From: Ferrithrix thermotolerans DSM 19514
GTDB lineage: Bacteria; Actinomycetota; Acidimicrobiia; Acidimicrobiales; Acidimicrobiaceae
Direction of reading: 5' to 3'
Length of the DNA stretch: 47,754 nt
Assembly: GCF_900128965.1 (NCBI RefSeq)
Contig: NZ_FQUL01000017.1
Location: forward strand, 1 to 47,754
The position numbers were made by a program, and so were the translations under genes. The notes below the pieces were generated by a model, which saw only the letters and a list, made by a program, of their open reading frames with translations, searched no databases and had not been told where the DNA came from. Below are positions 4,971 to 20,080 of the stretch, one piece after another; the first letter of the stretch is position 1; each line of letters opens with the position of its first letter.

Positions 4971-6257
4971 ATGGTTGTAGAGTTAGAGCCGCCTCCCTCG
5001 CCAAAGGGGTTGGCGGCTGCTGAAGCCCATGAGGCAGCGACGCGTTGGGTGAGGGGATCTCTCTCTGGGCTTTACTTGGAGTCGGAGGGATCTGAGATCG
5101 CATCCGATCAATTTGTCGGTGGGCACAGCGCAGCGTATCAAAGACTGTCGGAGTTCGACTGCAGCGGATATGGGTCTAAGAGAGGCAACGTTTACCCAAC
5201 TACCAAACGAGGGGCGTCACGTCTCTCTCCCTATATTCGACATGGGATTATCACGTTGAAAGAGGTTTATCTTTGGACGGAGAAACACTGTTCAGACTTT
5301 GATCGAGACCGTTTTCGCTCCGAGCTGCTCTGGCAGGAGTATGCACGGCATCTGTACTTTTTTTATGGAAGGGGGCTGAGGCGCCCTTACAGGTACAGAC
5401 CAAAGGATCCGGTATGTAGCACAAGTACTGCTGAGTACTTCGAAGACGAGGAGATGCTGTGCATCAAGGAGGTGTACGGCGAACTGGTTCGTTCGGGATA
5501 TATCGTGAATCAGAGCCGAATGTGGCTAGCCTCACACGCAACGGTCAGGCATAGAAAGGACTGGCTAGAGGGCGAGGAGATCTTCTTTCGACATCTTGTA
5601 GATGGATCCAGGGCAGCGAATCGTCTTGGATGGCAGTGGGTAGCGGGATATGCGACCGGTCGGCCGTATGGATTCTCACAGAGTCAGGTAGCGCGCTATG
5701 CGCCTCGCCTTTGCGCAAAGTGTTCCTTGAAGAGTACGTGTCCGATTCAGTTCTGGCCAGAGACGTATGAAGTTGTAATGGCTGAGCCTATCGCTAGATA
5801 CGATCACTTGGTGAAGGAGATGGAGGAGATGGTCTCAGCTCGTGTTGAACCCTCAGATGTCGCATGGATAACAGCTGAGAATCTGGGACTATATCAGGAG
5901 GTACTGCGGCTGCCGCGCAAAGAAGTCCTCTTTATCTTCGATGAACCGCTGTTGAGGAAGTTGCAGATCTCGAGTAAACGGCTGATATTCATTGCCCAGA
6001 CGTTAGGGGAGATACAGGAGTACTATAGCAACCTTAGAGTATTTAGGGGTGATCCAACGGATCTTCTAAAAGATAGGGAGGTTGACACATGTTACTCCCC
6101 AGTTCCTCTTTGGCGAAGATATGCAAAGAGCGCACAGCTTCGTAACGTCTATCCTTACCCTTGGCTAAGAGAACCGAAAGAAAATGAACCTTTATCTTCG
6201 TTCTCAAGGTGGCGCTCTTATCTAGAGCGAGGGGATAGGGCGAGTCGGAGAAATTAG
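4971..6257 (+). CDS. Photolyase/cryptochrome-like FAD-binding protein with apparently permuted domains
   Basis: Residues 50-235 match the FAD-binding half of photolyases: SRLSPYIRHGIIT, ELLWQEYARHLYFFYG, GYIVNQSRMWLAS, HLVDGSRAANRLGWQWVAG. This half normally follows an N-terminal Rossmann-like domain, but here only about 50 residues precede it. A Rossmann-like stretch resembling that antenna domain instead follows at residues 290-400 (VAWITAENLGL, EVLFIFDEPLL, KRLIFIAQTLGEI, VFRGDPTDLL). Between the halves lies a cysteine group, CAKCSLKSTC, which could bind metal or Fe-S. By my alignment the Asn that faces flavin N5 in E. coli PhrB is Arg here (AANR versus ASNN). The membership of the superfamily is secure, but the activity (DNA repair, light sensing or other) is not. 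There is no ribosome binding site; see the upstream -10 candidate. The 3' end lies 8 bp from the convergent EAL gene. Confidence 0.85.
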   Translation: MVVELEPPPSPKGLAAAEAHEAATRWVRGSLSGLYLESEGSEIASDQFVGGHSAAYQRLSEFDCSGYGSKRGNVYPTTKRGASRLSPYIRHGIITLKEVYLWTEKHCSDFDRDRFRSELLWQEYARHLYFFYGRGLRRPYRYRPKDPVCSTSTAEYFEDEEMLCIKEVYGELVRSGYIVNQSRMWLASHATVRHRKDWLEGEEIFFRHLVDGSRAANRLGWQWVAGYATGRPYGFSQSQVARYAPRLCAKCSLKSTCPIQFWPETYEVVMAEPIARYDHLVKEMEEMVSARVEPSDVAWITAENLGLYQEVLRLPRKEVLFIFDEPLLRKLQISSKRLIFIAQTLGEIQEYYSNLRVFRGDPTDLLKDREVDTCYSPVPLWRRYAKSAQLRNVYPYPWLREPKENEPLSSFSRWRSYLERGDRASRRN

Positions 6258-6265
6258 GTGGACCT

Positions 6266-7573
6266 TTAGGAAAGAACTATCTCTGGGTCGTCTTTTTGTT
6301 TGGTGAGCTCGATGGTCATTAGCTCTACCATCTGCGATGCCTGCATTCTTGCCATATCCGCTAGCTTCTCAAGGCGCAGAAAGCTACCGGCCTCGGCAGA
6401 CTCAACTACCGCATGAGCCAAGGTGTGAAACGCAGTGTGGGACTCTCGAATAAGTGTGAGGTTTCCGAATCGCTCTGGTTGGATGTTCATCCAGTTGTCC
6501 AGACTGCATCGGGCCGTAAGCTCCTGTACCAAATTAAGCCTTCGATGTGGAATTTTGACGTCCTGAGTTAGACGACCTAGTAGGCGAAGATGATCCAACA
6601 GAGCCCCAAACCACATCTGTGAGGAGTCTGCCATGTCGAGCCTGTAGTTTTGTGCAAAATCTCTTATCTTGTTCTCTGGCATTGGACGCGATATGCCATA
6701 TCCCTGTAAAAAGCCAACGCCCGTCTGGCTCAAAGCCTCCACGTGCAACGGAGTCTCTGCACCCTCAGCTACTATGTCTACCCCTACCCCGTTTCCCAGT
6801 TGAACGATCGTGTCAAAGAAGGCGAGGTTTTTAGGTGAATGTAGTATGTCTCGAGCGAAGCCCTTGTCTATCTTGATCTCGTCTATCGGGAGTTCTCGAA
6901 AACGTAGTAACGAGGAGTATCCTGAGCCGACGTCGTCCAGGGCTATCCTGATTCCGAAGGCTCTCATTTGAGCGATGTTTGCATATGCTATCTGAGATGC
7001 AAGGATCTCACCTGTCTCAAGTATCTCTAGAACTATGTCTTTGGGATCTGAAGAGGAGGGGAGTAGTGAGAGAAGCTCTGTGGCAAAGTTAGGATCTGCA
7101 AGGTCGTCTGGTGTTGTATTAATGCTCATAAAGAGAGGTTTTTTGTCTACACGATTTCGTTGTTGAGCCGCCAGGGCTTCTTTGAAGACTGCTCGCCTAA
7201 AGTCTCTTGCCTCTCTTTTGTCTAGCTGTTGCAAAAATTCCGGCGGGGTCAAAGTACGGTGGTCTATCTTCCATCTGGTAAGGGCTTCAAAGCCAACCAC
7301 CTCCCTTGTCTGTAGCGATATGATCGGTTGATAGAGTAGGAATGCGTCACCGGCACGAAATGCACTATTTACCTTTGGGAATCCTCCAAGCTCTGAGTAG
7401 AAGTTGACGCTTGCACACTTGGTTTCGGATCTCTTGGCACTATAAAGCGCCTGCTCGGCGCTTCTTAGGATCTCTTTAAATTCGCCTCCATCCGCGGGGA
7501 AGAATGCGACACCGGTTGTCCAAGTGTAAGATATGGTTCCAAGAGGTTTGGACTTGCTCACCAAATGGGACAC
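6266..7573 (-). CDS. EAL-domain c-di-GMP phosphodiesterase, C-terminal part of a split GGDEF-EAL gene
   Basis: This frame begins with the last piece of a GGDEF domain (TTGVAFFPADGG, SAEQALYSAKRS). A full EAL domain follows: YQPIISLQTREVVGFEALTRW, the Asn in FMSINTTPDDL, Glu in LEILETGEI, DDVGSGYSSL, the Lys in IDEIKIDKGF, Glu in AEGAET, and QGYGISRPMP. The metal-binding and catalytic residues of EAL enzymes are therefore kept, so pGpG formation is plausible. The last 120 residues are a helical tail of unknown role. It is in the same frame as the upstream GGDEF part and is separated from it only by a TGA at 7616-7618. The GTG at 7573 is the first usual start codon after that stop and has no clear ribosome binding site, so independent translation is doubtful. 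The frame is open up to 7615. Confidence 0.8.
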   Translation of the reverse strand: MSHLVSKSKPLGTISYTWTTGVAFFPADGGEFKEILRSAEQALYSAKRSETKCASVNFYSELGGFPKVNSAFRAGDAFLLYQPIISLQTREVVGFEALTRWKIDHRTLTPPEFLQQLDKREARDFRRAVFKEALAAQQRNRVDKKPLFMSINTTPDDLADPNFATELLSLLPSSSDPKDIVLEILETGEILASQIAYANIAQMRAFGIRIALDDVGSGYSSLLRFRELPIDEIKIDKGFARDILHSPKNLAFFDTIVQLGNGVGVDIVAEGAETPLHVEALSQTGVGFLQGYGISRPMPENKIRDFAQNYRLDMADSSQMWFGALLDHLRLLGRLTQDVKIPHRRLNLVQELTARCSLDNWMNIQPERFGNLTLIRESHTAFHTLAHAVVESAEAGSFLRLEKLADMARMQASQMVELMTIELTKQKDDPEIVLS

Positions 7574-7615
7574 TGAACCCCGCTTACCTATGCGGCCTGT
7601 ATCGTAGCGGCTTGT

Positions 7616-9001
7616 TCAAAACAAAAATTTGATCTTCAGCTGGGCTGCGGTTGTAAGGGTATCGAAGAGATCCAGGACTACTTTAGGGTCTGTTGTGTCG
7701 TCGACGATTACCGCGAATTGGTCTCCGCCGACACGAAATACACTGTCGAGGTCCTCAAAGGTCTCAATTAGAGCCTTTGAAAAGTGCACGATTAGTTGAT
7801 CACCAACCTCCGTGCCGTGCATTGAGTTTATCGACCGAAGATCGTCTATGTCCAAAAGGCAAAGGGCGAATGGCCTAGGTGCGGTATTGGTTTTCTTTGT
7901 CTTTGCAAAAAGCACGTTCTCAAACTGTGCCCGATTCGCCAGTGACGTGGCTTGGTCGTGTGTTGAGAGCCAGAGAGTGTTTTGTCTGAACTGAGTAGCT
8001 TGTTGTTGCTGTCTTAGAAGCCGAAGAGACTGGACGATCAACTTGTTTATCGTCTCCATCGCCTCAAGAGTGTGGGGCTGGAAGAGGTTGCTAATCGGAG
8101 AGGCCGCCACTAAAACCGACTCGGCCACGGCGTCGCCAACAGGCATTGCGACTACTGAACGCCATCTATGTGCGATAAAAAAGTCCCGCCATGGGCCCAG
8201 TCCTGGTGCGTTTATCTGGTCGTTGTTGTAGCACAACGAGTTCGAGGCGTAAGCCTTTGAAGAGAGTGGGGTTAGGTGATCGTTGACCTGTACGGGAATC
8301 TTGAAGTTTTTCATCTCACCGGCACCGGCTCCGGCTGCATCCACAATGTCAAAGCATCCGGTACTGAAGGACTCTGTCCCTAGCCACGCAGCATGGAAAA
8401 TTCCCGATCCAAGGAGGCTGTCAATACAAGCGCTCATTAGTTGCGGCTCTTCTGTGATCTGTTCTCCAATAGAGGCGATGATCTCGGTAAAGCGAGCGGT
8501 GAGAGCAACTAGCTTTCTAGAGCTGACGGACCCTACTCTCAGTGTGTCCCTCTCGGTCGTCTGTGCAAAGAGTGCTACTGAGTACTCATTAGGAGCGCAG
8601 TCCTCTCCGCGCTTTACGATAGCTGCCACCCTGTACCCTTGGTTGCGAGTGCTAGAAGCCGACTTTATCTTTATGTATGAAGATCCCACATACCCCGGAC
8701 CGAGCGTATTTTCTGAAAAAGCTGTCGTTACATCAAAGCCGGGCAGTAATTGGGATATGTTCATCCCATCTACAGCTCCAGGAGGTATGGAGATGAAGTC
8801 GAACCATGGGTCGAGGGCTGTAAACGCTGTAATTAGGCCAAAGCGGTTGCACGACAGCGTGCCAATCTCAATGGCGGTGCCTCCGGATAAGAGCTTTGAC
8901 TCATAGGCCTGATCGTTAGTTATGGACCAAGGCTCCTTTGATCCATCGCCACTAACGTACTCCGAGTTCACATACCCTCCCAATACCCAACCGAACCTCA
9001 C
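7616..9001 (-). CDS. Sensor plus GGDEF domain, N-terminal part of a split GGDEF-EAL gene
   Basis: Residues 1-160 form an unassigned sensor-like region. Residues 165-335 resemble a GAF domain (WLGTESFSTGCFDIVDAAG, then WRSVVAMPVGDAV). A Gln-rich helix, LRLLRQQQQATQFRQ, leads into a GGDEF domain with the degenerate entry HDQATSLANRAQF, the metal/nucleotide stretch LLDIDDLRSINSMHG, and a GGDQF signature. There is no RxxD inhibitory site before GGDQF (EDLD occupies it). The domain is cut by TGA after about 32 residues past GGDQF, and its missing end continues in frame in the next entry. The first codon is GTG with no clear Shine-Dalgarno, so the true start is uncertain. As read, the diguanylate cyclase domain is incomplete. 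The gene may be a recent pseudogene, or the TGA may be a sequence error. Confidence 0.78.
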   Translation of the reverse strand: MRFGWVLGGYVNSEYVSGDGSKEPWSITNDQAYESKLLSGGTAIEIGTLSCNRFGLITAFTALDPWFDFISIPPGAVDGMNISQLLPGFDVTTAFSENTLGPGYVGSSYIKIKSASSTRNQGYRVAAIVKRGEDCAPNEYSVALFAQTTERDTLRVGSVSSRKLVALTARFTEIIASIGEQITEEPQLMSACIDSLLGSGIFHAAWLGTESFSTGCFDIVDAAGAGAGEMKNFKIPVQVNDHLTPLSSKAYASNSLCYNNDQINAPGLGPWRDFFIAHRWRSVVAMPVGDAVAESVLVAASPISNLFQPHTLEAMETINKLIVQSLRLLRQQQQATQFRQNTLWLSTHDQATSLANRAQFENVLFAKTKKTNTAPRPFALCLLDIDDLRSINSMHGTEVGDQLIVHFSKALIETFEDLDSVFRVGGDQFAVIVDDTTDPKVVLDLFDTLTTAAQLKIKFLF

Positions 9002-19951: not shown

Positions 19952-20080
19952 TTCAGGGAATCTGGTGCAACTCCAGAGCTGGCCCGCAACTGTAACCGGG
20001 GAGTCTACCTCATAGGTCACGGCGTCTTTGACGCTGGAAGGCGAGGATAGATGCTGATTCGGAAGTCAGGATACCTGATA
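19952..20080 (+). promoter_or_regulatory. Cobalamin (AdoCbl-class) riboswitch upstream of cobU
   Basis: The classical conserved blocks appear in order on the plus strand: the AGGGAA entry with GGTGCAACTCC (from 19955), the core GGCCCGCAACTGTAACCGG (from 19981), a GACGCTGGAAGGCG block around 20030-20043 and the closing GGAAGTCAGGATACCTG (20061-20077). It ends about 20 bases before the AAGGAG site of cobU, which fits control of translation or of early termination. It should switch off cobU-cobS-cbiB-cobQ-cobN-chlI/D when cobalamin is plentiful. Its promoter must lie near or inside the 5' end of the divergent cobO. Exact ends are approximate. Confidence 0.94.

Follow-up and report, generated by a model that had tools for sequence, protein, structure and literature searches.

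The 47,754-nucleotide stretch of Ferrithrix thermotolerans DSM 19514 analysed here (the window) carries an intact gene for a 428-residue photolyase whose two domains stand in reversed order. The catalytic domain, which binds flavin adenine dinucleotide (FAD), comes first, and an alpha/beta domain of the antenna type comes last. We regard the product as quite probably a FAD-first, light-driven photolyase for cyclobutane pyrimidine dimers (CPDs), in the iron-sulfur (Fe-S) branch of the class known as short photolyase-like (SPL) or Phr6. The domain order, the homology and fold of both halves, and the conservation of the cysteines and of the active site are direct observations. The original prediction had described a swapped order, a cysteine cluster and the replacement of a flavin-contacting asparagine by arginine; the first two stand and the third does not. 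In public genomes a scan confirmed 502 related stretches, the best 80 of which were used for counts over loci. Conservation is given for an alignment of the window protein with 61 relatives (62 rows) drawn from those 80; left out were near-duplicate loci, frames containing stops or Ns, loci on short contigs and some further ones. With this alignment, AlphaFold2 modelled the whole protein with a mean pLDDT (predicted local distance difference test) of 94.2 and a pTM (predicted template modelling score) of 0.93.

The searches agree in placing the catalytic domain on the N-terminal half. Pfam assigns PF03441 at E 2.1e-11, above the family cut-off; the NCBIfam models of class I photolyases, none of which reaches its curated cut-off, match inside residues 35-229; and the Protein Data Bank (PDB) chains of the A. 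nidulans, T. thermophilus and E. coli photolyases match within residues 51-233. The top rows of the PDB sequence search are class I chains together with 4u63, which belongs to class III. By fold, model residues of about 1-273 match 4dja (VIA-align Z 17.5, root-mean-square deviation (rmsd) 3.3, 251 residues) and the E. coli photolyase 1dnp (Z 16.5, rmsd 4.7, 246 residues), the leading rows being tied within about one Z unit. No N-terminal alpha/beta domain is present ahead of the FAD domain by Pfam, NCBIfam, the model or the fold search.

The C-terminal half had been described as Rossmann-like and reminiscent of the antenna domain, and both structure prediction and fold comparison bear this out. 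Modelled alone, residues 285-428 (pLDDT 87.3) find 5kcm as the best fold match (Z 9.6, rmsd 2.5, 105 residues, chain residues 2-132), and photolyases and cryptochromes make up 49 of the 50 listed VIA-align entries, the remaining one being a mitoribosomal protein. Comparison by hhalign of the C-terminal profile with 11 canonical antenna domains (from 19 candidate loci, the others having failed a motif filter) gives P 1.4e-7 and a score of 48.9. With the profile reversed P is 0.24, and none of 100 column shuffles reaches the real score (top 19.2). A bridging form is provided by two FAD-first Deinococcus proteins (L103 and L148), which carry a longer version of the domain with P 1.1e-8 to 12 canonical sequences and 6.8e-15 to the window family; PF00875 matches L103 at E 7.2e-4, under its cut-off, and gives no match on L148. 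The alternative, an unrelated Rossmann-like domain joined to the FAD domain, would fit the weakness of PF00875 on single members (3 of 62, best E 0.029) and the Foldseek search with the C-terminal domain alone, which gave no match at E<=0.001; its best row was 2j07 (E 6.6e-3, probability 1.00), with methyltransferases mixed among the photolyases. Set against the shuffled controls, the composition of the VIA-align entries and the Deinococcus bridge, this alternative is extremely improbable. Since fold, profile and bridging form agree, sequence and model indicate that the antenna domain has moved to the C-terminus and that the circular permutation suggested earlier is real.

The last residues suggest where the new ends lie. 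In a forced hhalign alignment the columns for SFS and for W come close to those of the canonical VFTP and AW, and the C-terminal helix region with the SFSxW motif is a possible counterpart of the VFTPF..AW linker motif behind the ordinary antenna domain. This would probably place the new ends of the permutation within the former interdomain linker. The counterpart finds no confirmation in the fold search: some leading VIA-align rows stop at chain residues 126-132, and many rows, of higher rmsd, carry the helix onto canonical residues of about 230-300.

Photolyases have a tryptophan triad as electron chain, which is complete in class I CPD enzymes. Its inner member, the counterpart of E. coli W382, is Trp221 in every row, and the second is Trp198 in 60 of the 62. 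Asn217, which faces N5 of the flavin, is likewise invariant; we take its E. coli counterpart to be N378 by structure numbering, or 379 with the Met counted. Arg218 aligns with the position just after this asparagine. The proposed Asn-to-Arg change was a one-residue misalignment, and the different chemistry that had been drawn from it loses its support because Asn217 is retained. The aligned A. nidulans residue, N386, is in a published list of FAD-site residues (PMC9426592), and the switch Asn at the flavin is described as conserved (PMC12083526).

The residues around the lesion are those of a CPD enzyme. Glu118, Trp121 and Asn180 are each present in 62 of 62 rows and Met184 in 60; they match the lesion-site residues E274, W277, N341 and M345 of E. 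coli. A strict check of the lesion and flavin motifs failed in seven of the 80 loci (on the lesion motif in all seven, and in two of them on the flavin motif as well); despite this, the Asn columns are invariant in those members of the seven that are present in the alignment. In the (6-4) photolyase PhrB, His366 and Leu370 occupy the positions of the CPD-type Asn and Met, and the H366N exchange abolished (6-4) repair (PMC4619345). We read the lesion site, from its residues, as of CPD type, contrary to the (6-4) guess published for Phr4/Phr6.

Four cysteines (164, 248, 251 and 257) are invariant in all 62 rows, and their spacing pattern recurs in all 80 of the best loci. The original prediction had listed the CxxC-x5-C group at the domain junction and suggested a metal or Fe-S cluster; it had overlooked the fourth ligand candidate, Cys164. 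In profile comparison all four fall on conserved cysteines of four Fe-S bacterial photolyases (FeS-BCP; P 7.1e-8); in one of these there are two candidates for the first Cys. The first Cys also keeps its distance to the lesion site: Cys350 of PhrB lies 16 residues before His366, the same offset as Cys164 to Asn180 (PMC3204975, PMC4619345). The spacing is 84-3-6 in the window protein vs 88-3-13 in the four FeS-BCPs, and the gap between the third and fourth Cys is 5 residues vs 12-15 (PMC3204975). Because the four invariant cysteines align with those of Fe-S (6-4) photolyases, they likely carry a [4Fe-4S] cluster.

Homologues at E<=1e-70 occur in 37 of 148 genomes of the host class, the host's own included. 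Of these, 28 belong to one genus (g30), with assemblies of 0.6-1.1 Mb. In a phylum sample, 20 of 296 genomes, again with the host's own, have a homologue at E<=1e-50. By title, 78 of the best 80 loci are actinobacterial (including Rhodococcus, Mycolicibacterium, Nocardioides and Patulibacter), one is from Myxococcota and one from an 'uncultured bacterium'; the labels on some metagenome-assembled records seem unreliable, 'Bifidobacterium breve' for example. The viral contigs and phages searched yielded no relative, nor did the genome contigs searched with the single protein, and among 38 records from a plasmid search none covered 80% of the query. The host genome also has an ordinary class I photolyase. 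All nine homologue-bearing class genomes outside g30 have a canonical PF00875 photolyase, and six of the nine have a PF04244 (FeS-BCP) protein as well. PF00875 is positive in 63 of 146 class genomes searched, none of the 63 in g30; one of the 28 homologue-bearing g30 genomes, G147, seemingly lies outside this sample of 146. That the permuted enzyme might be its host's sole CPD photolyase was tried as an argument for CPD repair and rejected, because g30 has open reading frames resembling class II CPD photolyases (two scanned of four fetched; TIGR00591, 2e-109 and 5e-110, under the model cut-off).

Several results weigh against a light-driven CPD photolyase. A genuine change at the flavin is found at the Asp of A. 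nidulans D382, which is Ser213 in 62 of 62 rows; the lesion-site Arg342 of E. coli is Gln181; and E. coli W306, the outer Trp of the triad, is matched by no residue in an alignment that is loose there. In the model of residues 285-428, the antenna-domain helix between the third and fourth strands has only four residues, and the pigment pocket may therefore be lost. The four cysteines could in principle bind zinc. A search of the host genome with PF04244 found no such protein, which makes (6-4) repair arguable by complement. For the Phr4/Phr6 type, (6-4) activity was predicted from the cysteines (PMC9426592). The same paper reports that phr4/phr5 gave E. coli protection against UV-C that did not differ significantly in light and in darkness, but none against UV-B.

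Two rival explanations draw on these points. According to one, the Fe-S cluster points to a function shared with the Fe-S (6-4) enzymes, a view put forward for Phr4/Phr5 and Phr6. The aligned cysteines, the published prediction and the host genome lacking PF04244 would agree with it, as would the UV-C rather than UV-B phenotype of a Synechococcus phr4 mutant (PMC9426592). Against it stands the lesion site, where the His that PhrB requires is replaced by the invariant Asn180 and the adjacent Leu by Met184. The FAD-domain tree (40 hand-picked rows, root placed by us on the FeS-BCPs) also sets the window family far from the FeS-BCPs: its 17 rows form a clade with support 100/100 and group, with moderate support (80/81), with the FAD domains of the Deinococcus FAD-first and NewPHL-like proteins. 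Moreover, six of the nine genomes outside g30 have both proteins, so the family is not a general substitute for PF04244. We consider (6-4) repair unlikely.

The other rival supposes that repair has been lost and that the protein persists, beside an ordinary class I photolyase, as a light sensor of the cryptochrome kind or as a DNA-binding protein. The canonical enzyme in nine of nine genomes outside g30 would suit such a role, as would the protection of E. coli by phr4/phr5 irrespective of light. Conservation of the CPD lesion site together with Asn217 and Trp221 argues for a working catalyst, and the Pfam scan of the 428-residue protein revealed no added signalling domain. Nor do the neighbours help this reading: the EAL and GGDEF proteins next to the gene are on the other strand, and the sole window neighbour whose cluster reached four of 65 loci is an AMP-binding enzyme (6 loci). 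A sensor is very unlikely.

For a CPD photolyase of this design we infer the following mode of action. The N-terminal half would bind FAD and hold the flipped-out cyclobutane dimer against the flavin, with Asn180, Glu118 and Met184 facing the lesion. Under blue light FADH-, excited directly or via a pigment, should the C-terminal domain bind one, would donate an electron to the dimer; the dimer would split and the electron return. The cluster held by the four cysteines would mainly stabilize the fold, a structural role that we assign because the Cys mutants of PhrB were insoluble or not expressed (PMC4619345). The C-terminal antenna domain would pack on the catalytic half, its pigment perhaps kept, perhaps not. 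An antenna of 8-hydroxy-5-deazaflavin (8-HDF) is possible. FO synthase is present in the host genome and in 20 of 21 family-bearing genomes, but also in 136 of 146 genomes of the class; it is so common that its co-occurrence was rejected as evidence and the 8-HDF antenna stays unproved. In the nine genomes outside g30, all with PF00875 and six also with PF04244, the protein would be an extra enzyme, perhaps used on single-stranded DNA by analogy with NewPHL, for which such activity is reported (PMC13274461).

The layout itself is not new. A new photolyase/cryptochrome class had been proposed for the window protein; since the layout is already described for Phr4/Phr5 and Phr6 (PMC9426592) and for SPL (PMC9649867), a case that the original prediction had itself named as refuting it, the protein is a further member of a published class, and the permuted order is known from other bacteria. 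In the open-licence literature searched, and among the papers from it that were read, the reversed FAD/antenna layout appears only in Haney et al. 2022 (PMC9426592) and in one sentence of PMC13274461. In the picocyanobacterial Phr4/Phr5 and Phr6 (Cyanobium, marine Synechococcus) the FAD domain is first and the photolyase domain last, with Phr4 cysteines at C169, C254, C257 and C263 (PMC9426592), a spacing of 85-3-6 vs the 84-3-6 of the window protein. These proteins differ in being cyanobacterial and partly split into two frames, and they are compared here by published description.

SPL is described as a CPD photolyase with an Fe-S cluster (PMC9649867), is also treated in PMC9178010, and is equated with NewPHL in a text that mentions inverted topology (PMC13274461). 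It shares with the window protein the lack of an N-terminal alpha/beta domain, a class I-like FAD domain, a CPD-type active site and the four Cys or Fe-S site. It differs in that the window protein and four Rhodococcus homologues (L080, L082, L087 and L098; 42% best-segment identity each, not titled R. fascians) carry an antenna-type domain at the C-terminus. In 2021 Xu et al. reportedly found that an SPL of Rhodococcus fascians contains FAD and an Fe-S cluster and repairs CPDs. The alphaproteobacterial proteins that we label NewPHL-like (L104, L105 and L149) are likewise FAD-first with a further C-terminal domain, which relates to the window family at P 0.1 and to canonical antenna domains at P 0.015 (a low-confidence alignment); unlike the window protein, L104 and L105 lack the Cys cluster. 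NewPHL itself is characterized by a C-terminal Z-domain, and a degenerate antenna domain was one candidate reading of the C-terminal part of the NewPHL-like proteins. NewPHL has no Fe-S cysteines, as stated for Phr7 (PMC9426592); the window protein has four.

The FeS-BCPs (PhrB, CryB; PF04244) have four cysteines in aligned places and give the best fold match to the FAD half, level within one Z unit with class I enzymes, but show the normal domain order and His in place of Asn180, along with the wider Cys spacing and distant tree position given above; PF04244 has no match in the window protein at E<=10 in Pfam. In a PF04244 FeS-BCP-type protein of g30 (L126:1432-2973, + strand) the first Fe-S Cys is replaced by Pro, so that this (6-4)-type enzyme may lack the cluster. 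The class I CPD photolyases of E. coli, A. nidulans and T. thermophilus share the lesion and flavin Asn and are the best sequence matches of the catalytic half; they differ in having the antenna domain N-terminal and no Cys cluster.

As one more member of a published class, the window protein is itself of modest interest. It bears on whether FAD-first Fe-S photolyases repair CPDs, as the residues suggest, or (6-4) lesions, as guessed for the cyanobacterial proteins, and on how short the 'short' class, postulated to lie at the root of the family, really is. It has been proposed that SPLs, lacking an antenna, represent the ancestor of all photolyases and cryptochromes. We suggest tentatively, with rather more doubt than confidence, that the actinobacterial Fe-S SPLs are not antenna-less but are complete two-domain photolyases, with the antenna permuted to the C-terminus and with the Fe-S site of the (6-4) Fe-S enzymes alongside a CPD active site. 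Shortness would then be no argument for ancestry. A four-Cys site in a CPD-type enzyme bears on the age of the cluster: its presence in two deep, functionally different branches would, if true, make it the older feature.

Table 1. Features of the permuted photolyase gene (window positions) and the basis of each assignment.
Feature	Position	Strand	Basis
Permuted photolyase gene, 428 aa	4971..6257	+	Open frame, intact
Photolyase FAD-binding catalytic domain, residues 50-233	5118..5669	+	PF03441, NCBIfam, PDB photolyases, VIA-align
Cys164, first of four putative Fe-S ligands, 16 residues before Asn180	5460..5462	+	62/62 rows
Asn180, lesion-site residue (E. coli N341; His366 in (6-4) PhrB)	5508..5510	+	Asn in 62/62 rows
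Asn217, residue facing flavin N5, retained	5619..5621	+	Aligned with A. nidulans N386; 62/62 rows
Trp221, counterpart of E. coli W382, inner Trp of electron chain	5631..5633	+	62/62 rows
Cys248-x2-Cys251-x5-Cys257, other three putative Fe-S ligands, domain junction	5712..5741	+	62/62 rows
Permuted antenna-type alpha/beta domain, residues 296-400	5856..6170	+	hhalign P 1.4e-7; photolyase N-terminal fold matches
C-terminal helix region with SFSxW motif, residues 411-427	6201..6251	+	Forced hhalign (-mact 0)

The gene neighbourhood showed no strongly recurring partner in 64 loci and the window; the largest clusters comprised 10 loci, perhaps by shared lineage. After the photolyase gene, on the opposite strand (positions 6266-9001), two adjacent frames encode EAL-domain and GGDEF-domain proteins; these could be two genes, or a single GGDEF-EAL gene interrupted by a frameshift. 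Farther along, a cobalamin riboswitch (RF00174, 87.6 bits) lies at 19955-20076 on the + strand, and several open reading frames at 9-15 kb resemble, by eye, cobalamin biosynthesis genes.

At 12 of 12 g30 loci (L008, L009, L011, L014-L022) a gene begins 4 bases inside the end of the photolyase gene. The one scanned, at L150:6520-6939 (+), in the same place as that of L008, encodes an F420H2-dependent quinone reductase (PF04075, 1.5e-38), to which the other overlapping g30 genes are 60-99% identical; by tblastn at E<=1e-3 it has no match in the other loci L003-L102 or in the window. The two g30 genes probably form one operon; a possible deazaflavin link to the photolyase merits attention.

Two other proteins recur nearby. 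In 6 of 64 loci the permuted photolyase has, no more than about 0.5 kb upstream, a flavin-containing, amine-oxidase-like protein, and the start of the Asticcacaulis NewPHL-like gene is overlapped by one that resembles it. The two scanned, L105:1037-1978 (+) and L053:3367-4365 (+), match NAD_binding_8/Amino_oxidase. A DUF2256-DUF3253 cluster (representative L029:4196-4828, - strand) is found within about 1.5 kb of the permuted photolyase, also in 6 of 64 loci.
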